Source of the DNA: Nonomuraea corallina
Lineage (GTDB): Bacteria > Actinomycetota > Actinomycetes > Streptosporangiales > Streptosporangiaceae
Length of the DNA stretch: 64,000 nucleotides
NCBI RefSeq assembly: GCF_027620315.1
Contig: NZ_JAPNNL010000007.1
Span: forward strand, 1 to 64,000
Reading direction: 5' to 3'
Shown in pieces: positions 12,187-51,860 of this stretch. Numbering within the stretch: the stretch's first letter is position 1; the number at the start of each line of letters is the position of its first letter. Below the pieces are notes generated by a model. It searched no databases. It was given only the letters and a program-made list of their open reading frames with translations, and was not told the origin of the DNA. The translations under genes were made by a program, and so were the position numbers.

Positions 12187-12673
12187 GGCATCCTCGCATT
12201 GATCCGCCGTCACGGAGTCCGGATTCTCCTGGGCAACGAATCGAGGCTGTTTCAAGTTCCTTTCGCCATTCCTTCACCCATCAAGGGAGCGGACAGGGCT
12301 CAGGATGTGCGGTGGGCCGGGCTGAGACATCCGATGGGCGGGACGTGTCAAATCGTGTGGAGCGGTCGTCGACGCGAGCGGCGAGATGTGGGCGCGACGA
12401 GGTGCGCGTCGGCGGTTCCTCCGGCGCGCGGGGTTCGGGGCTGGGAAATCCTCAGCGACAATGGCGATCAGCCCGCGTGGATTCGCAGGGCGGCGGCATG
12501 GCGATCGCCGTGTTCTTTGCGTCGGTCGTGGTGAGCGCGGGTGCCAGGTGAGGCGGTCAGGGCCGCGAACGACCACACCAGAAGCTCCTGTCCAGGCAGC
12601 TGCAGCCGCACGAGACGGGCCACTGCTCTTGCAGGGGGCTGCCCGGGCGCGAGGGCGTGCGAGCCGCTCGGCC
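12187..12673. other. Intergenic region between divergent genes
   Basis: About 490 bases between the small minus-strand gene and the repeat cluster ahead of the DUF4143 ATPase. Open frames on both strands have arginine-rich composition and no ribosome sites, so I see no gene here. The alternative TTG start of the minus-strand gene (12,255) lies inside it. Confidence 0.5.
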
Positions 12674-12765
12674 AGCGACCAACAGCCCATATCAGTGGCG
12701 ACCATTTCACCATGAACATGGCGACCAACTCACCGCGGGTACGGCGACCAATTCACCGCGAGGGA
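12674..12765 (+). repeat. Four 23-bp phased direct repeats (iteron-like)
   Basis: Copies begin at exactly 23-bp spacing: 12,674 (AGCGACCAACAG..., degenerate), 12,697 (GGCGACCATTTCACC...), 12,720 (GGCGACCAACTCACC...) and 12,743 (GGCGACCAATTCACC...). The shared core is GGCGACCAnnTCACC, and identity increases toward the gene. The array ends at the ribosome site of the DUF4143 ATPase, so it likely overlaps its promoter. A cooperative operator is the simplest reading. Confidence 0.75.
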
Positions 12766-12767
12766 TT

Positions 12768-14045
12768 ATGATAGAAAGCATGGTCACCACCCCGCTCGGG
12801 CGCCTGATCCACCGTCACGCGGAGCAAGCAGTCGCGGACGCCTTGGCCGATACGCGCGTCGTCCTGGTCAACGGCGCACGACAGTCGGGCAAGAGCACGC
12901 TGGTCCGGCGGCTCGCCAAGACGGACGGCACCGAGTGGCGCGACCTCGACGATCCGCTGACCTTGCAGGCTGCGTTGAGCGACCCCAGCGGCTTCGTGGA
13001 CTTTCCGGAGCCCATGGTCATCGATGAGATCCAGCGTGCTCCGGAGCTACTGCTCGCCATCAAATCTCAGGTGGACGCCGATCCGAGACCCGGCAGATAC
13101 CTGCTCACCGGCTCCTCCCGGCTACTCGCCCTACGCGGTCTGCCGGACACCCTGCCCGGTCGGATGGAAACCATCGAACTGTGGCCTTTCGCGCAGGGCG
13201 AGATCGACGGCCGTCCCGATGCCTTCATCGACGCGGTGTTCACGCACGGCCCGGCCCTCCGGCACACCTCCCGGCTCACCCGGGCCGACTACGCGGACCG
13301 CCTGGTCCGCGGCGGCTACCCCGAAGCTGTCGCCCGCACCAACCCTCGACGCAGGCAACGCTTCTTCGACTCCTACGTCGGCGATCTGATCAACCGTGAC
13401 GTGATGCAACTGTCGGAGATCGAACGTACCGCGGAACTACGCGCGCTGGTCAGGTCTCTGGCGGCCAGATCCGGTCAACTCCTCGTCGTTCAGGCGCTGG
13501 GCCGTGACCTCGGCCTGCCCGGCACAACCACCGCCAGATTCCTGGCACTGCTGGAAGAAGTCTTCCTGATCAAACGCGTGCCCGCCTGGTCGAAGAACAT
13601 CAGCAGCCGGGCCGTACACACCCCCAAGGTCACCTTTGTCGACTCGGGAGTGGCGGCGAACCTGCTGGGCGTCGACGCCCACAGCCTCCTCCGGCCCGGG
13701 TCCGCATTCGGGCCGCTGCTCGAGGGCTTCGTCCTGACGGAACTGGCCCGGCAGACGACCTGGGCGCACACCTTGGTCGACCTTTACCACTACCGGACCA
13801 AGGACAAGGTGGAGGTGGACGCCGTCCTGGAGAGCCGCCAGGGCCGGGTCGTGGGCATCGAGGTCAAGGCCGCCTCCACCGTACGACCGGACGACTTCAA
13901 AGGACTCCGCCACCTTGCGGAACGGGTGGGCCCCGACTTCGTCGCCGGTCTGGTCCTGCACACCGGCACGCAGACATTCTCCTTCGGCGACCGAATGCTG
14001 GCCGTCCCGGTCAGCGCCCTGTGGGAGGCAACGGCCACGACCTAG
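12768..14045 (+). CDS. AAA ATPase with DUF4143 domain
   Basis: A 425-residue protein of the AAA_14/DUF4143 family. Walker A is NGARQSGKSTL (about residues 37-47), Walker B FPEPMVIDEIQRAPELL, sensor GRYLLTGSSRLL; the C-terminal DUF4143 half ends in a restriction-endonuclease-like core (YHYRTKDKVEVDAVLE...VVGIEVKAA). ATG at 12,768 follows GCGAGGGA. Members are widespread solitary ATPases of unclear function, sometimes linked to conflict systems. This one lies immediately outside the left attachment site of the integrated element and behind the phased repeats. Confidence 0.88.
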   Translation: MIESMVTTPLGRLIHRHAEQAVADALADTRVVLVNGARQSGKSTLVRRLAKTDGTEWRDLDDPLTLQAALSDPSGFVDFPEPMVIDEIQRAPELLLAIKSQVDADPRPGRYLLTGSSRLLALRGLPDTLPGRMETIELWPFAQGEIDGRPDAFIDAVFTHGPALRHTSRLTRADYADRLVRGGYPEAVARTNPRRRQRFFDSYVGDLINRDVMQLSEIERTAELRALVRSLAARSGQLLVVQALGRDLGLPGTTTARFLALLEEVFLIKRVPAWSKNISSRAVHTPKVTFVDSGVAANLLGVDAHSLLRPGSAFGPLLEGFVLTELARQTTWAHTLVDLYHYRTKDKVEVDAVLESRQGRVVGIEVKAASTVRPDDFKGLRHLAERVGPDFVAGLVLHTGTQTFSFGDRMLAVPVSALWEATATT

Positions 14046-15379: not shown

Positions 15380-15416
15380 CTCGTATGAAAATCCAGAGTT
15401 GACGACGGAGGCTGCA

Positions 15417-17465
15417 GTGATTGTTGGAGATGACCCGGTATACGCAGAGAGTGACCGCCTGGGACGGAAATCTCTGGCCGGAAACTGGGCCGACACCATT
15501 ATCAATACAAAGGCGCCATTCGGCCTCGTATTCGCTGTTACTGGCCCGTGGGGGTCAGGAAAGACTTCCATGCTGAATATGATGGAAGAAAAGCTACGGG
15601 CATCAGATGTGACAGTACTCAAGTTCAACCCATGGCTATTTTCTGGCACCGATCAACTAATCAGCCATTTTTTCGGAGAGATGGCGAGCCAACTCGATTA
15701 CGAAGACCCCAAACAGAAGGAGATTGCAGGCAGACTAAAGAAGTATGGCACCCTATTCTCCCCCCTTAAGGCAATACCGGTTATCGGTAGCACTCTTGGC
15801 GGCGCAGCAGACGCTGCTACGACTATTGGAAAGTATTTGGAGGACACGCAAAGTCGAGGCGTGGAAGAGCAACGAAGATTGATCGAGGATTCTTTGCGGG
15901 AACTCGATAGCCCCCTGGTTCTAGTCGTCGACGATATCGACCGCCTCACGGGTCAAGAAATACGCGATGTACTCCGAATGGTCCGTCTTACCGGCGCGTT
16001 CCCCAACCTCATCTATCTACTTTCCTTCGATCGACAGCGCGTTGAATTGGCGCTGAACGAGGACGGCCTTCCCGGAAGAGCCTATCTCGAGAAGATTGTT
16101 CAGGTTATGTATGATGTTCCGGTTGTCGTACGAGACAGCCTGCGCAATATTCTGCTAGACGAACTGAATCATGCCGTTCAAGACACCGGCTACTCCCGAT
16201 TCTCAGCCGAAGCATGGCCGGACGTGCTGGTTGAGATCATTGATCCACTCCTGAATAACATTCGCGACGTTCGGCGCTACATAGGCCCACTGCGAGCAGT
16301 CCTCACCTCTCTAGAGAACGAAGTTGAACTTGTCGACGTCTTAGCTCTGGAGGCTCTGCGCATATTTCTCCCCGATTCCTATGCACTGCTGCCCCACGCT
16401 GCTCGTTCGTTGACTGACACGGCAGACGCGAGCCACGAGTCTTCTGAGCTTAAAGCGCAGGCCGAAGCGTTCGTCAACTCAGATCAAAATCATGCGAACA
16501 TTCTTCGTTCTCTTTGTGCGCGAATTTTCCCTGCATCGCGACGCCGTTTGGGCGAGTACCAACGCTATGGAGGCGATTGGGAACGGACATGGCTACGAGA
16601 ACGCAGAGTGGCCAGTAATTCCGTCCTATCTTTCTACCTCGAGAAATCCATGCCCTCGACTGTGAAGAGTGCCATCACTGCCGAGACTATCTTCAGCCGG
16701 TTTGAGGACCGAGCCTACCTTGAGCATGTCTTCCAGGACATGGATCCCGCCGGCGCGGAAGAAGTAATCAGAGCTCTGGAAGCATACGAGGAGCAGTTTT
16801 CCAATTGCGACCCGATTCCTTCGGCCATAGTGCTGCTCAATCAGCTGCCACGCCTACAGCGTCCTAAGCGTGGGCTCCTTGACCCAGGCCCTACGATAAC
16901 CATATCAAGGGTCGTACTTCGCCTTCTCCGCCCGATCGCTGACCCCGAGCAGGTCCTAAGGATTGTCAAAGACATCCTCCCCAATCTAGAGCAGTATTCT
17001 ACAAAGTTCGAGCTTACGAGACTAGTAGGACACGCGAAAAATGCGGGGCACAAGCTGATATCAGAAACAGCATGGAAGGACCTCGAAACAAGTCTTAAGA
17101 ACGAGGTGCGTGGCGCTTCCGCTGATTCTCTCGCGACGGAATGGGATCTGTTGCGCCTTCTCTGGCAGACAGGCCAAGGCGAGGATTCTCAGGAATGGCA
17201 TATACCTCTCGAGTTTATCGATCACCCCGCTCTTGCTAGAGCAATTCTCACCGACTCTGTCGGAACGACGCAGTCTCAGAGCCTCGACTCCCGAGCGATC
17301 ACCAAAAAGAAGCATCTCGCCTGGGACATCTTGGTGGAGGTTCTCGGCGACGAGAATGCAATTATTCGCTGTCGAGATGCCGCTGCAAGCATCGATGAAA
17401 CAGCAAATGACGTGATAGAGCTGGTTGATCTATACCTATCAGGGTGGCGTCCCCCTAGGTGGTAG
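15417..17465 (+). CDS. KAP family P-loop NTPase (element cargo)
   Basis: A 682-residue KAP NTPase. GTG at 15,417 sits 8 bases after GGAGG; a TTG at 15,399 has no such site. Walker A is GPWGSGKTS (43-51), the family FNPW motif is at 70-73, and Walker B VVDDIDRL near 170-177. Between them residues about 111-138 (LFSPLKAIPVIGSTLGG...) form the hydrophobic insert that many KAP proteins place at the membrane. The C-terminal 400 residues are helical and unassigned. KAP ATPases are known from phage-exclusion (PifA) and other membrane-linked conflict proteins. GC is clearly lower than the flanks (about 55% in one sampled line), pointing to separate acquisition. Confidence 0.88.
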   Translation: MIVGDDPVYAESDRLGRKSLAGNWADTIINTKAPFGLVFAVTGPWGSGKTSMLNMMEEKLRASDVTVLKFNPWLFSGTDQLISHFFGEMASQLDYEDPKQKEIAGRLKKYGTLFSPLKAIPVIGSTLGGAADAATTIGKYLEDTQSRGVEEQRRLIEDSLRELDSPLVLVVDDIDRLTGQEIRDVLRMVRLTGAFPNLIYLLSFDRQRVELALNEDGLPGRAYLEKIVQVMYDVPVVVRDSLRNILLDELNHAVQDTGYSRFSAEAWPDVLVEIIDPLLNNIRDVRRYIGPLRAVLTSLENEVELVDVLALEALRIFLPDSYALLPHAARSLTDTADASHESSELKAQAEAFVNSDQNHANILRSLCARIFPASRRRLGEYQRYGGDWERTWLRERRVASNSVLSFYLEKSMPSTVKSAITAETIFSRFEDRAYLEHVFQDMDPAGAEEVIRALEAYEEQFSNCDPIPSAIVLLNQLPRLQRPKRGLLDPGPTITISRVVLRLLRPIADPEQVLRIVKDILPNLEQYSTKFELTRLVGHAKNAGHKLISETAWKDLETSLKNEVRGASADSLATEWDLLRLLWQTGQGEDSQEWHIPLEFIDHPALARAILTDSVGTTQSQSLDSRAITKKKHLAWDILVEVLGDENAIIRCRDAAASIDETANDVIELVDLYLSGWRPPRW

Positions 17466-46702: not shown

Positions 46703-46880
46703 CGGACCTCCCGATTCGGTACGAGGTGCGCCTTCCCCAACGGCCTCGTCCAGCGGGAGTGATCACAAGTGACTAGGGAGAGACTACCGTCGGTCGCAAT
46801 CCGGCACCAGAGGGGGGCCATACCAAGTTGGTGCGCGTGTGACGCGTGACAGCCGCTCCGACGGGGATAAATACCCGCTC

Positions 46881-47894
46881 ATGGACATCGAACCCGCAGG
46901 CCAGGCCCTCATCCGGCCGGGCCAGGTCCTGACCGACCGGGGCGCGCTGTCGGCCGCGGCGCGCTGGACCAGGGCCGTGTCCGAGGCCGACGGGGTCTGC
47001 GTGGTCCATCTCTCGCCCGGCGTCGACCCGCGCGAGCTGACCGCCGAGCTGCGCGAGCAGGGGTTCCGGGCCTCGCCCAACCACGTCTTCACCGGGCAGC
47101 CGCTGTTCTTCGGCGGGCCCGCCTCGCGGCCGTTCCCGTGCGAGCCGGTCCCCTACCGGCCGGGACGGTCGCGCTCGGAGGTGACGGTGGGCCTGCTGGA
47201 CACCGGGGTGGCCGGCCATCAGTGGTGGGCCGGCGCCGAGTGGTTCGAGGCCGTCCCCGAGGACGCGCGCGACGCCGCGGAGGGCGCCCAGGCCGGTCAC
47301 GGCACGTTCATCGCCGGGCTGCTGGCCCGCCAGGCGCCGGGCGTGTCGCTGCGGGTGGCGCGGGTGCTCGACGGCGAGGGCGTCGGCGACGAGGCGACCG
47401 TCCTCCGGGTGCTCCACCGCATGCGCGAGCGTCCCCCGCAGGTGCTCAACCTGTCCTTCGGCGGCCACACCTTCGACGACCGGCCGCCGCCCCTGCTCGC
47501 CGACGCGCTGGCCGGGCTGCCCGACACGCTGCCGGTGGCGTGCGCCGGCAACACGGCGTCCGACCGGCCGTTCTACCCCGCCGCGCTGAACGGCGTGCTC
47601 GCCGTCGGCGCCGTGGACGCCGACGAGCGCCGGCGGGCCCCCTACTCGGCGCATGGCGGCTGGGTCGACGCCTGCGCCCGCGGCGACTGGCTGGCCAGCA
47701 GCTTCCTGGAACGCGACGGGTTCGCCGGGTACGCGATCTGGTGCGGCACGTCCTTCGCCGCCGCCGTGGTGGCCGGCACGATCGCCGCGGCCGCCTCCGA
47801 CCGACCGGCCAGGCAGGCGGCCGAGGAGCTTCTCAGCCTGAAGGAGGCCCGGCAAATTCCGGATCTGGGAGTCCTCGTACCGTCGAGTCTGTAG
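46881..47894 (+). CDS. Cytosolic S8 family serine peptidase
   Basis: A 337-residue subtilisin-like protease. The triad is complete: Asp107 in GLLDTGVAG, His140 in GHGTFIAG and Ser291 in GTSFAAAVVAG, with the oxyanion Asn in ACAGNTASDR. There is no signal peptide, propeptide or membrane anchor, so it should act inside the cell. ATG at 46,881 is used; GTG at 46,839 is an alternative. It leads a same-strand group with an ECF sigma factor, a small protein and a TPR-CHAT protein. Mycosins are relatives but have signals and anchors. Confidence 0.87.
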   Translation: MDIEPAGQALIRPGQVLTDRGALSAAARWTRAVSEADGVCVVHLSPGVDPRELTAELREQGFRASPNHVFTGQPLFFGGPASRPFPCEPVPYRPGRSRSEVTVGLLDTGVAGHQWWAGAEWFEAVPEDARDAAEGAQAGHGTFIAGLLARQAPGVSLRVARVLDGEGVGDEATVLRVLHRMRERPPQVLNLSFGGHTFDDRPPPLLADALAGLPDTLPVACAGNTASDRPFYPAALNGVLAVGAVDADERRRAPYSAHGGWVDACARGDWLASSFLERDGFAGYAIWCGTSFAAAVVAGTIAAAASDRPARQAAEELLSLKEARQIPDLGVLVPSSL

Positions 47895-47966
47895 AGTTCA
47901 CTCTCAGTTCCCAGGCGATCACGAGGAGTCGACCCCCGCTCCTCCGCCGGTCCGGAAGGAGGCCGC

Positions 47967-48503
47967 ATGCCCGATCCGCGCCAGCTTGCGGAGCTGCTGC
48001 TCGCGGCCGACTCCGGCGACCAGAGCGCCTGGGACGAGCTGGAGGCCCGGTTCGGCCCCCGCATGTGGGCCGTCGCCCGCGCCTGCGGGCTCAACGAGCC
48101 GGACGCCGCCGACGCGGTCCAGGGCGCCTGGCTCCGCCTGCTCGAACACCTCCACGACATCAGGGAGCCCGCCGGGGTGGGCGCGTGGCTGGCGACGACC
48201 ACGCGCCGCGAGGCGCTCCTGCTGATCAGGAAGAGCAGGTCCGCGCCCGCGCCCTTCGAGGTCGCCCACGATCCCGACCCCGAGTCGGCCGTCCTGGAGG
48301 CAGACGGCAACCGCCTGCTCTGGAAGACGGTCTCCGCGCTGAAGGAGCCCTGCCGCAGCCTGCTGACACTGGTCGCGTCCGACCTCGGGAGCCGGCAGGT
48401 GGCCGTGCGGCTGGGGCTGCCCATCGGCAGCGTCGGCCCGACGAGGGCCCGTTGCCTGGAGAAACTGCGCACCCTGATCTCACTGCAGGAGACGGTGCAA
48501 TGA
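47967..48503 (+). CDS. ECF sigma factor of the protease/CHAT locus
   Basis: A 178-residue sigma factor: region 2 AWDELEARFGPRMWAVARAC, DAADAVQGAWLRLLEHL; region 4 SALKEPCRSLLTLVASDLGS, RQVAVRLGLPIGSVGPTRARCLEKLR. ATG at 47,967 follows GGAAGGAGG. The stop overlaps the next gene (ATGA at 48,500). It has no classical anti-sigma partner; the small coupled protein may serve as one. It is likely to transcribe the locus or a linked response, by inference. Confidence 0.88.
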   Translation: MPDPRQLAELLLAADSGDQSAWDELEARFGPRMWAVARACGLNEPDAADAVQGAWLRLLEHLHDIREPAGVGAWLATTTRREALLLIRKSRSAPAPFEVAHDPDPESAVLEADGNRLLWKTVSALKEPCRSLLTLVASDLGSRQVAVRLGLPIGSVGPTRARCLEKLRTLISLQETVQ

Positions 48504-48946
48504 TCGACGACGAGTACTTCCTGGCGGCCCTCCGGCTGGCCTCCGGGCACGACCCGATCCCCGCTCACGTGTCCGCCGCCGCCCGCCAGGCGTTCGCCCT
48601 GCGGGTCCCGCACGCGGTGACCGCCTGCCCGGCCGGCTACAACGCCGCGCGGGGCGTGCGCGGCGCCGAGAGCCCGCAGACGGTCCGGTTCGTCACCGAC
48701 GCCCTCACCTTCGACCTGGAGGTGACCGTCGGCGACGGCCTGATCGACGTGGCCGGTCAGGTGTGCCCGCCGCCCGGCGAGGGGTGCCACGTCGACATCC
48801 GCACCCTCCACCTGACGCTCACCAGGCGTCTCGCCAGTACGGGCCAGTTCGCGGCCACGGGCCTGCCTCCGGGCTGGCTCAGCGTCGTCTGCCACCGGCC
48901 CGGCCACGCGCCCGTCCAGACGAGTTGGGTGCGCGTCCGACCCTGA
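48500..48946 (+). CDS. Small conserved protein coupled to the sigma gene
   Basis: A 148-residue protein beginning with a short helical region (EYFLAALRLASGHDPIPAHV, SAAARQAFALR) followed by an all-beta segment (TVRFVTDALTFDLEVTVGDG, HLTLTRRLASTGQFAATGLP, WLSVVCHRPG) that resembles a carboxypeptidase-regulatory-like/transthyretin fold. ATGA overlap with the sigma gene. Comparable small proteins sit between sigma and CHAT genes in other actinomycetes, to my recollection. An anti-sigma or adaptor role is possible; no direct motif proves it. Confidence 0.65.
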   Translation: MIDDEYFLAALRLASGHDPIPAHVSAAARQAFALRVPHAVTACPAGYNAARGVRGAESPQTVRFVTDALTFDLEVTVGDGLIDVAGQVCPPPGEGCHVDIRTLHLTLTRRLASTGQFAATGLPPGWLSVVCHRPGHAPVQTSWVRVRP

Positions 48947-48979
48947 CCCCCGACCCTGACCCCCGACCCTGACCCCCGG
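48941..48979 (+). repeat. Three 13-bp tandem repeats
   Basis: CCCTGACCCCCGA repeated three times (last copy ends GG), starting inside the stop region of the preceding gene and extending into the spacer before the CHAT gene. Confidence 0.8.
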
Positions 48980-49040
48980 CCCGGGGCCGAGGGCCCGCAC
49001 CCCCTCCGGTCCCGGCCGCTTCCCCTTCGCGAGGCGGCGC

Positions 49041-51860
49041 ATGGCGACACCGCGGCTCACCCGTACACCGGGCCGTTCCTCCGGCGGCGCGCTGCTCGTG
49101 CGCGCGGCCGAGATGGCGGTGCTGCGCTCGGTGATCGACCCCCAGCAGGCGCTGCGCGCCGGGCGCAAGGTGCTGGAGGCGGCCGAGAAGGCCGGCGACG
49201 GAGAGGCCGCGTCCGTGGCGCTGCGCGCGATGGCACTGGCCTCGCGCGAGCTGGGTGATCTGCAGGCCGCCGAGCAGCGGCTGCGGCAGGCCGTCCGGAC
49301 GCCGGGCGCGCCCGCCGAGCGGGTGGCGCAGGCGAGGCTCTCCCTCGTCACCGTGCGGACCGAGCGGGGCCACCCGCTGCAGGCGCTCAGGATGGCCGCG
49401 CTCGCGTGGGCCTACCTGTCGCCGCTCGACCGGGCCAAGCTCGACACGCAGCGCGCCGTGGCCCTCGCCCACCTGGGGCGCTACCAGGAGGCGGTGGCCT
49501 CCTGCGACCGGGCGCTGCGGGCTCTCGTGGCGGCTCCCGGCACCGTCGACGACCGGCGGTTCCTGGCCGGCGGGCTGCTGAACCGGGGGCTGGTGCACGC
49601 CTACCGGGGCGACTGGGACCAGGCCATGCGCGACATCACCGCCTGCCTGCAGATCGCCCGTCACGCCCGGCTGTCCCACCTGGTGCGGCTGGCCGCCGCC
49701 AACCTGCCGTTCCTGGCCGTACGGCGGGGCGACATCGGCGGGGCGTTCACCCACTACCGGGAGGCCGAGGACACCCTGTACGGGTTCCCGGAACGGCTGG
49801 CGACGATGCGGGCCGACTTCGCGGGCGCGCTGCTGGCCGCCCACCTGCCCGGCGAGGCGCGGGCGCTGCTCAGCCTGGCCGTGCCCGACCTGGAGGAGTC
49901 CGGCGCGCGGGTGGCGCTGGCCGAGGCGCGGCTCAAGCTCGCCCAGGTGGAGCTGCTGACAGGCGACGCGCGCGAGGCCGTGGCGGTCGCCGAACGGGCC
50001 ATGCGGGAGCTGTCCGATCAGGACCGCCGGGCGTGGCTGCCCCTGGCCAGAGAGGTCGTGCTCCGCTCCCGCCTGGCGCTGGAGCCGCCGACGCCCGCCT
50101 TGCTGGCGGAGCTGGTCGCGTGCGCGGACGGGTTGGAACAGGACTCCGCCCACCTGGCCGAGGCCGCCTCGCTGCGGCTGACGGCGGCCGAGACCGCGCT
50201 GGCGCTCGGCGACCCCGCCGCGGCCTCGGCCCAGCTCGCCCGCCTCACCGAGGAAGCGCCGGCGATCCCGCCCGGCGGGCGGTACCCCCAGGAGTGCGTC
50301 CCCGCCGGGCAGGTGCCGCCGCTGGTGCGCCAGCACGCCCTGGCGCTGGCGGCGGCGCTGCGGGAGGACATCACGGCCGCGTTCCGCGCCGCGCAGGAAG
50401 GGCTCGCCGGGATGGGCGGCCGCATGGACAGCCTGGACGACCCGTCGGTGCGGGCGCACGCGGCGCGGGCGGGCGAACGGCTGGCGGCGTTCGGGCTGCG
50501 GCTGGCGGTGCGCGACGGGTGCGCCGAGGAGGTGTTCGAGTGGGCGGAACGCTGGCGGGCCGTCGCGGCCCCGGTCCACGCCCGCTCCGCGCACGGCGCG
50601 GGCGAGACCGACGGGTGGGCCGAGCTGCGGGCCGCGCTCGGACGGGCGGCGCTGGTCGAGTACGTCACGGACGACAGCTCGCTGTTCGCCGTGGTGGTGA
50701 CGGGTGAGCGGATGGCGCTGCGGTCGCTGGGGCCGCTGCGTGAGGCCGGTGAGTCGCTGGTCCGGCTGCGCTACTCGCTGCGCCGGGCCGCTCTGCACGA
50801 CGGCGCCGCCGGGGCGGAGGCGATCGCGGCGGCCGGGGCCGAGCTGGAACGGTTCCTGCTGGCTCCGCTCGCCGCCGAGCTGGGCGATCGTCCGCTGGTG
50901 CTGGTGCCGACCGGCGTCCTGCACACCCTCCCCTGGTCGGCACTCCCCTGCCTGCGGGAACGCCCGGTGACGGTGGCGGCCAGCGCCCGCTCCTGGCTCA
51001 CCGCCGCCCGCAGCGCCGCGTCCCCATGCCCCGGCCGAGCCGTCCCCTCATCGGCGCAGCCCCCGGGCACCGCACAGGCCGACCACGCCGTCCCCTCGCC
51101 GGCGAAGCCCTCGGGCATCGCCGGGCCCGGCCGGGCTCCGGTCCCGCACGGTGCGCCCGCCGGACGGTCCGCCGGGCCGGAGAGGGGCGCGGCGGGATCG
51201 CTCCACGTGGCCGCGGCCGCAGGACCTGGCCTGGCGTACGCGCGAGAGGAGGTGGACCGGGTGGTGGCCGCCCATCCCGGCGCGCGGCCGGTGGCGGCCC
51301 GGCGCGACGCGGTGCTGGCCGCCCTGGCCTCCTGCGACGTCGTCCACCTGGCGGCGCACGGGGTGTTCCACGCCCGCAGCCCGCTGCTGTCGAGCATCAC
51401 CCTCGACGACGGCCCGCTCATGGCCTACGACCTGCTCGACGGCCCGCGCACGGCCCGGCTGGTGGTGCTGTCGGCGTGCGACTCGGGCATGGCCCGCACA
51501 CCGGCGGACGGCGCGCCGCTGGGGCTGGCGGGCGCGTTCCTGGCGCAGGGCGCGACGTGCGTGGTGGCCGGGATGGTGCCGGTGGGAGACGAGGACGCGC
51601 TGGCGGTGATGAGCCGGTTTCACGAGCTGCTCGCCACCGGCCACACCCCGGCCTCAGCTCTTGCCCTCGCCTCCGCCTGGACGGGCATCACCGCGTTCAC
51701 CTGCTTCGGCGCGGGCGACCAGCCGCTGGTGCCGCGCGAGCCGGACCCACCCGCCGCCGGTGGCCCGGCTGCCGGGCCCGCGCCGGCCGGGCGTCCCGGC
51801 GAAGGAGACCTCCGGCCTCCGCCGCGCACCCGTGAACGGTCCGCCCGGCCACCCGCGTGA
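49041..51860 (+). CDS. TPR-CHAT protein (caspase-like protease)
   Basis: A 939-residue protein. Residues about 15-520 are helical TPR-like repeats (VLEAAEKAGDGEAASVALRA, AVALAHLGRYQEAVASCDRA and so on). From about 560 a CHAT domain follows, with catalytic His773 in VVHLAAHGVFH and Cys813 in LSACDSG, and VLVPTGVLHTLPWSALPCL before an Ala/Pro-rich insertion (about 660-725). The last 50 residues are disordered and Pro-rich. CHAT proteins cleave proteins after activation, often in conflict or cell-death systems. ATG at 49,041. It is fourth in the S8-sigma-small protein-CHAT group. Confidence 0.88.
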   Translation: MATPRLTRTPGRSSGGALLVRAAEMAVLRSVIDPQQALRAGRKVLEAAEKAGDGEAASVALRAMALASRELGDLQAAEQRLRQAVRTPGAPAERVAQARLSLVTVRTERGHPLQALRMAALAWAYLSPLDRAKLDTQRAVALAHLGRYQEAVASCDRALRALVAAPGTVDDRRFLAGGLLNRGLVHAYRGDWDQAMRDITACLQIARHARLSHLVRLAAANLPFLAVRRGDIGGAFTHYREAEDTLYGFPERLATMRADFAGALLAAHLPGEARALLSLAVPDLEESGARVALAEARLKLAQVELLTGDAREAVAVAERAMRELSDQDRRAWLPLAREVVLRSRLALEPPTPALLAELVACADGLEQDSAHLAEAASLRLTAAETALALGDPAAASAQLARLTEEAPAIPPGGRYPQECVPAGQVPPLVRQHALALAAALREDITAAFRAAQEGLAGMGGRMDSLDDPSVRAHAARAGERLAAFGLRLAVRDGCAEEVFEWAERWRAVAAPVHARSAHGAGETDGWAELRAALGRAALVEYVTDDSSLFAVVVTGERMALRSLGPLREAGESLVRLRYSLRRAALHDGAAGAEAIAAAGAELERFLLAPLAAELGDRPLVLVPTGVLHTLPWSALPCLRERPVTVAASARSWLTAARSAASPCPGRAVPSSAQPPGTAQADHAVPSPAKPSGIAGPGRAPVPHGAPAGRSAGPERGAAGSLHVAAAAGPGLAYAREEVDRVVAAHPGARPVAARRDAVLAALASCDVVHLAAHGVFHARSPLLSSITLDDGPLMAYDLLDGPRTARLVVLSACDSGMARTPADGAPLGLAGAFLAQGATCVVAGMVPVGDEDALAVMSRFHELLATGHTPASALALASAWTGITAFTCFGAGDQPLVPREPDPPAAGGPAAGPAPAGRPGEGDLRPPPRTRERSARPPA

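Follow-up and report, generated by a model that had tools for sequence, protein, structure and literature searches.

The stretch of DNA considered here (the window) is the first 64,000 nucleotides of contig NZ_JAPNNL010000007.1 (C337 in our numbering) from the 7.56-Mb genome of Nonomuraea corallina, which belongs to the phylum Actinomycetota, class Actinomycetes, order Streptosporangiales and family Streptosporangiaceae. It carries a four-gene locus encoding, in this order on the forward strand, a subtilase of family S8, an extracytoplasmic function (ECF) sigma factor, a protein of 148 amino acids (aa) that we label SML, and a protease combining tetratricopeptide repeats (TPRs) with a CHAT domain (CHAT below). 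A first-pass annotation had placed four such genes at these positions, and Pfam and NCBIfam named the domains of all of them but SML (Table 1).

Table 1. Positions of the four genes and of associated sequence elements in the window
Feature	Position	Strand	Basis or remark
Promoter-like element GTGACA-N16-TAAATA	46846..46873	+	putative; 7 nt 5' of the S8 ATG
Cytosolic S8 subtilase, 337 aa	46881..47894	+	Pfam; catalytic residues checked
ECF sigma factor, 178 aa, regions 2 and 4	47967..48503	+	NCBIfam, Pfam
SML, 148 aa	48500..48946	+	partner protein; overlaps the sigma gene by 4 nt (ATGA)
13-bp tandem repeat, 3.5 copies	48937..48982	+	SML 3' end and SML-CHAT junction
TPR-CHAT protease, 939 aa	49041..51860	+	Pfam CHAT and TPRs

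The four proteins

Both proteases had been described as catalytically complete, and the residues concerned are indeed in place. Read from the ATG at 46881, the S8 protein (Pfam Peptidase_S8, E 8e-22) has Asp107, His140 and Ser291 together with Asn224, all four invariant in 24 of 24 aligned relatives; its conserved N-terminal ~100 aa are possibly propeptide-like. CHAT (Pfam CHAT, E 3e-34, plus TPRs) has His773 and Cys813, which are likewise invariant in 45 of 45 relatives; they are also invariant throughout a second set of 27, four of whose loci are without S8. These alignments exclude near-duplicates and odd gene models, which left 45 of 47 and 27 of 38 rows for CHAT, 24 of 32 for S8, 32 of 42 for sigma and 58 of 69 for SML. 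The first-pass view that the S8 enzyme lacks a signal peptide, and that both proteases are intracellular, agrees with the hydropathy of all four proteins, in which no transmembrane or signal-peptide-like stretch was found (highest 19-residue mean 1.65).

The CHAT model, built from 45 sequences with a mean predicted local distance difference test score (pLDDT) of 86, consists of a TPR superhelix and a caspase-like domain resembling those of separase and Csx29, and its low-confidence stretches, 669-713 and 909-939, are probably disordered. Separase (E 5e-14) and Csx29 were top-ranked when this model was searched with Foldseek. Alignment to the TPR-CHAT chains of Craspase with VIA-align gave Z scores of 22.6-31.2 over 452-583 aligned positions at a root-mean-square deviation of 6.8-11.7, a deviation that indicates that the domains are alike while the overall shapes differ. 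When the PDB was searched with a sequence profile, the closest CHAT domain was that of 8rot (E 3e-12), titled transmembrane anti-sigma factor DdvA, followed by Craspase chains (1.6e-7).

The sigma factor scores 54.3 bits against NCBIfam sigma70-ECF (cut-off 42.9), and among solved structures ECF SigE/RpoE chains are closest to it in sequence. It shows the architecture of an ECF factor, with region 2 above the Pfam cut-off, region 4 below it and no membrane part; region 4 carries a GSxGPTRxRCL motif. The coupling of SML to sigma suggested by the first-pass annotation fits the ATGA overlap, and a 4-nt overlap recurs in 24 of 41 loci. At the junction of SML with CHAT, occupied by the tandem repeat in the window, 9 of the 37 relatives that have both have a 4-nt overlap instead.

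SML itself was modelled with AlphaFold2 from 58 sequences (mean pLDDT 86), giving helices at 4-14 and 22-35, a lower-confidence stretch at ~31-60 and a beta-sandwich at 60-146; the linker varies greatly in length among relatives. In Pfam, SML has a sub-threshold match to CarboxypepD_reg only, and 25 of the 58 SML proteins match this family at E <= 0.01 (best 2.6e-7). The match is to a non-enzymatic regulatory-like domain, and SML is unlikely to be a carboxypeptidase enzyme.

Upstream of S8, the ATG at 46881 is kept in 5 of 5 close loci, as is the GTGACA of the promoter-like element, whose spacer is variable. An in-frame GTG at 46839 is a less likely start, because the ATG is conserved and the element lies between the two. 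With a sigma70-like element 7 nt before the ATG, a leaderless S8 message is possible; a consensus promoter scan listed no site in the region of the element, and Rfam gave no match at E <= 1 between 43 and 55 kb of the window. Dyad counts 5' of sigma barely exceed those of shuffled sequences, and a strong dyad signal 5' of S8 probably reflects the conserved start region of the neighbouring DUF3145 gene. A non-coding block 5' of DUF3145 (46704-46820) is strongly conserved, more so than the S8 side, and is recognisable by eye in other genera; it has no Rfam match and is possibly the promoter or leader of DUF3145.

Conservation and linkage of the four genes

Within the order, SML was found in 128 of 150 genomes. 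From its matches, 40 loci were hand-picked across genera and eleven window genes were mapped onto them, a sample that tests the neighbours and not SML itself. Sigma adjoins SML in all 40, and CHAT is nearby in 39, the remaining locus ending at a contig end; S8 is nearby in 31 and DUF3145 in 37. Most of these loci also share the flanks of the window, with ketoacyl synthase, acyl-CoA carboxylase and DUF3145 genes on one side and rhodanese, phosphodiesterase-family and DUF5998 genes on the other; the site is a core one, passed on vertically. Throughout the window's family it is fixed between the DUF3145 and rhodanese genes and is not a defence island.

S8 is missing from 9 of the 40 loci, and whole lineages without it retain sigma, SML and an intact CHAT. 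In the window's family, S8 is therefore dispensable and CHAT is not, and the protease cascade that the first-pass annotation envisaged, taken as a linear one of two proteases, finds no support as an essential feature. At loci without S8 (L057, L058, L060, L062, L064, L067), the GPTRxRC motif of sigma region 4 has drifted away, which would suit a changed output of the switch.

We searched 118 genomes of the class and 149 of the phylum with profiles of the four proteins and counted two genes as linked when they lay within 8 kb. These searches scored the best candidates per genome (6 or 8 for CHAT) at cut-offs that differ by protein, and absences may be overcounted. In the class genomes, SML was detected in 43, CHAT in 45, S8 in 43 and sigma in 44; all four occur in 38 genomes, none in 69 and some in 11. 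True partial sets are fewer than 11, for direct inspection of stretches fetched from the partial genomes turned up diverged forms of SML (G348, G384) and of sigma (G005, G008, G010); in G005, G008, G010 and G011, only S8 is then missing at the cut-off used. In the phylum genomes, SML occurs in 13, CHAT in 12 (all with SML), S8 in 16, and sigma in 15 at E <= 1e-35, the next match being at 1.2e-27.

The first-pass annotation had held that its idea would fail if the four genes were rarely adjacent. Rather, of the class genomes that hold both genes concerned, 39 of 40 have sigma linked to SML and 38 of 41 have S8 linked to CHAT; the two pairs, moreover, occur together even where unlinked. Across the pairs, linkage is looser (SML-CHAT only 30/42, sigma-S8 28/41, sigma-CHAT 28/42), and that of SML and CHAT implies that co-occurrence is not merely adjacency. 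For example, the halves sigma plus SML and S8 plus CHAT lie 4.7 Mb apart on a single contig of G344 and also far apart on a single contig of G267, and in G312, G321, G382, G330 and G235 they are on separate contigs, each at least several kb in from the end; contig breaks may account for some of the splits. The retention of both halves though separated is the best evidence for one system and a strong reason for studying all four proteins jointly. These comparisons show the four genes to be one evolutionary unit made of two pairs, sigma with SML and S8 with CHAT.

We also scanned named genomes with the sigma profile; it had at least 575 relatives there, of which we took the 80 best, at loci of up to 16.6 kb, some of them ended by the contig. 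These 80 loci span the Actinomycetota, including Solirubrobacter, Amycolatopsis, Catenulispora, Micromonosporaceae, Streptomyces, Acidimicrobiia and Nitriliruptorales, and they carry SML in 75 cases, CHAT in 58 and S8 in 53.

A second version of the locus, with S8, sigma and SML beside a divergent CHAT, is seen at L065, at L069 and at L002, the last of which belongs to the same genome as the window but to a different contig. That genome has two further sigma-SML pairs, one of them with S8 and the divergent CHAT, and CHAT fragments at contig ends; the loci of these further copies are L002/L192 (contig C238), L191 (C176), L193 (C75) and L194 (C195).

A proposed switch and its alternatives

We propose that the locus encodes an ECF sigma module of the ECF54 type, cytosolic and gated by a protease, in which CHAT cuts an inhibitor, SML, and we give this statement as a whole roughly even odds (a probability of about 0.5). 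Its safer part, namely that the four genes make up a sigma module under protease gating, we consider quite likely; that SML is both the inhibitor and the substrate of CHAT falls somewhat short of an even chance. In such a module, SML, translated in step with sigma, would bind it through its N-terminal helical hairpin and keep it off RNA polymerase, and its immunoglobulin-like (Ig-like) C-terminal domain would be where the protease takes hold. In CHAT, the TPR superhelix would sense a cytosolic cue and switch on the Cys813/His773 protease, which would cut SML, most plausibly in the variable-length linker at ~45-60; destruction of the remnant would then free sigma and turn on its regulon. S8 would be an accessory that activates CHAT or finishes off SML, a subordinate part suggested by the lineages that do without it.

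Several observations weigh against this proposal. As the first-pass annotation had remarked, there is no classical anti-sigma factor to be recognised: no anti-sigma domain, of the zinc or the RskA type, was found in SML with Pfam and NCBIfam or in its 58 relatives with Pfam. The fold of SML fits only generic Ig-like sandwiches (best Z 9.2), with no Foldseek match at E <= 0.001; superoxide reductase, CrdA and FN3, which reach similar Z, are common sandwiches, and no family stood out among those that the search covered. Mean-field covariation between sigma and SML over 153 pairs was underpowered (effectively 115 sequences for 331 columns) and mixes inter-protein with intra-protein pairs; the first pair to join the two proteins, at rank 3, links sigma column 88 to SML column 35 and is not to be trusted. 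Five of the 80 sigma relatives are without SML, four of them (L100, L101, L128, L167) in contexts that look different and the fifth (L118) at a locus that stops at the contig end. Genome G374 has SML beside S8 and CHAT without sigma (L202/L201), with sigma alone on another contig, and in a scan of 161 sources none of the four proteins was naturally fused to another of them. Fisher p-values for the genes do not exceed 5e-20; they take no account of shared ancestry and are descriptive only.

Among the alternatives, the one that survives best, though we think it unlikely, is that sigma itself is the substrate: S8 and CHAT would degrade it constantly until a signal stopped them, with SML as an adaptor or chaperone. 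Section 3.3 of the review PMC8999054 describes proteolytic control in this way, with sigma degraded and the system inactive, and the failure to recognise an anti-sigma domain agrees with it. Yet SML accompanies sigma (75/80) more constantly than either CHAT (58/80) or S8 (53/80) does, a constancy that fits a direct sigma partner and argues against degradation of sigma.

Somewhat less probable again is that the TPR-CHAT protein is the sigma-binding inhibitor, with SML as a sensor or adaptor. Here, the precedent is DdvA of Myxococcus, the best CHAT-domain match of the CHAT profile in the PDB (8rot), which PMC4374960, in the part on this pair, presents as the cognate anti-sigma of the ECF factor DdvS. 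However, CHAT here has no transmembrane segment, its Cys and His, needless in a pure binder, are invariant in 45 of 45 relatives, and it is often unlinked from sigma (linked in 28/42).

CHAT proteases elsewhere have roles in death and defence, and both proteases of the locus occur in the same genomes, from which it could be argued that sigma and SML only switch on the two proteases as executioners of cell death or phage defence. We regard this as improbable, as the site is a fixed core chromosomal one across the window's family, no motif common to the upstream regions of sigma-SML and of S8/CHAT was seen by eye in the split genomes, and PADLOC 2023 recognised no defence system, returning weak and partial matches (a subtilase at 7e-8, IetS at 4e-4 and BovA at 1.6e-5). 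The BovA match recurs in 14 of 45 CHAT relatives at <= 1e-5 (best 8.6e-8). The abortive infection suggested by the first-pass annotation finds no support and ranks last among the functional readings. Finally, that the four are neighbours without joint function is very improbable: vertical inheritance alone can hold neighbours together, but they are co-retained after physical separation in several families and jointly absent from 69 of 118 genomes.

Elsewhere in the window, a low-G+C patch at 14-18 kb (54-60%) has in or beside it, at 12657-14045 and 15399-17465, an AAA_14/DUF4143 protein of PDC-S01 type (E 1.8e-182) and a KAP NTPase with a match to PifA at E 6e-67, which suggest a separate defence or mobile patch.

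Comparison with known systems

The first-pass annotation called the circuit unusual, but the arrangement itself is not new and fits group ECF54 in PMC8999054. In its passage on ECF54, this review reports a proposal of protease control without an anti-sigma factor, grounded on the conservation of a subtilase, a carboxypeptidase and a CHAT protein in the context of the group, and cites Huang 2015 and Casas-Pastor 2021. That passage was the one direct mention of the arrangement returned by our literature search, and the mechanism is apparently untested in the literature found. We place the locus provisionally with ECF54, by gene context, as an actinobacterial ECF sigma factor lies beside a subtilase, a CHAT protein and a protein matching CarboxypepD_reg, and we propose that the 'carboxypeptidase' of ECF54 is SML. 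The third 'enzyme' of the context is then probably not an enzyme, because SML matches only the carboxypeptidase regulatory-like domain, and weakly; by look, it is a non-enzymatic sandwich of that kind and not a peptidase. Geodermatophilus, the genus of the ECF54 exemplar SFT86700.1, is not among the best 80 of the at least 575 sigma relatives.

A close mechanistic parallel is Craspase, the type III-E CRISPR system of Csx29, Csx30 and CASP-sigma, in which, according to the relevant part of PMC10028731 (Strecker 2022), the TPR-CHAT protease Csx29 cleaves Csx30, an inhibitor of an ECF sigma factor. Besides a TPR-CHAT cysteine protease and an ECF sigma factor, both systems have a third protein that is cytosolic and of a non-classical type, and the CHAT proteins share the Cys-His dyad, with a weak sequence match around the catalytic residues and a clear match in fold. 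In contrast, SML has 148 aa and Csx30, by the same source, more than 540, and an S8 subtilase is added here. A search of the PDB with the SML profile, down to E <= 10, returned none of the Csx30 chains. Cas7-11/gRAMP is not among the seven further Pfam-named neighbours at 43.4-57.6 kb, none of which is a cas gene; the rest of the genome was not searched. The module may work like Craspase signalling, but it is no Craspase. PMC11106740, where it treats Craspase cut sites, describes them as not conserved between orthologues, and the variable linker of SML is accordingly no argument against cleavage.

Other systems resemble the locus in part. In the type III CRISPR system CalpL-CalpT-CalpS, an ECF sigma factor is bound by the anti-sigma CalpT and set free when a cytosolic protease, CalpL, cuts CalpT, as the pertinent part of PMC11417357 describes, yet CalpL is a Lon protease with a SAVED sensor, in place of the CHAT protein and subtilase found here. 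DdvA and DdvS of Myxococcus xanthus likewise pair a CHAT-domain protein with an ECF sigma factor, but DdvA is transmembrane and itself the anti-sigma. Separase shares the helical-repeat superhelix and the caspase-like protease fold, but is eukaryotic and has cohesin as its substrate.

A broader conjecture, which may well prove wrong, is that Craspase signalling without CRISPR is widespread in actinobacteria, with CHAT and the subtilase cutting a new class of small cytosolic anti-sigma proteins, built of a helical hairpin and an Ig-like sandwich and hitherto called 'carboxypeptidase', and so freeing ECF54 sigma factors, and that the CRISPR version was recruited from this older housekeeping stress circuit. 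If the switch proposed above proves right, a large and apparently untested sigma group would gain a testable switch, and soluble anti-sigma proteins would gain a class that sequence searches miss. Craspase and CalpL would then be special cases of a broader bacterial theme, the release of sigma factors by intracellular caspase-like and Lon proteases.

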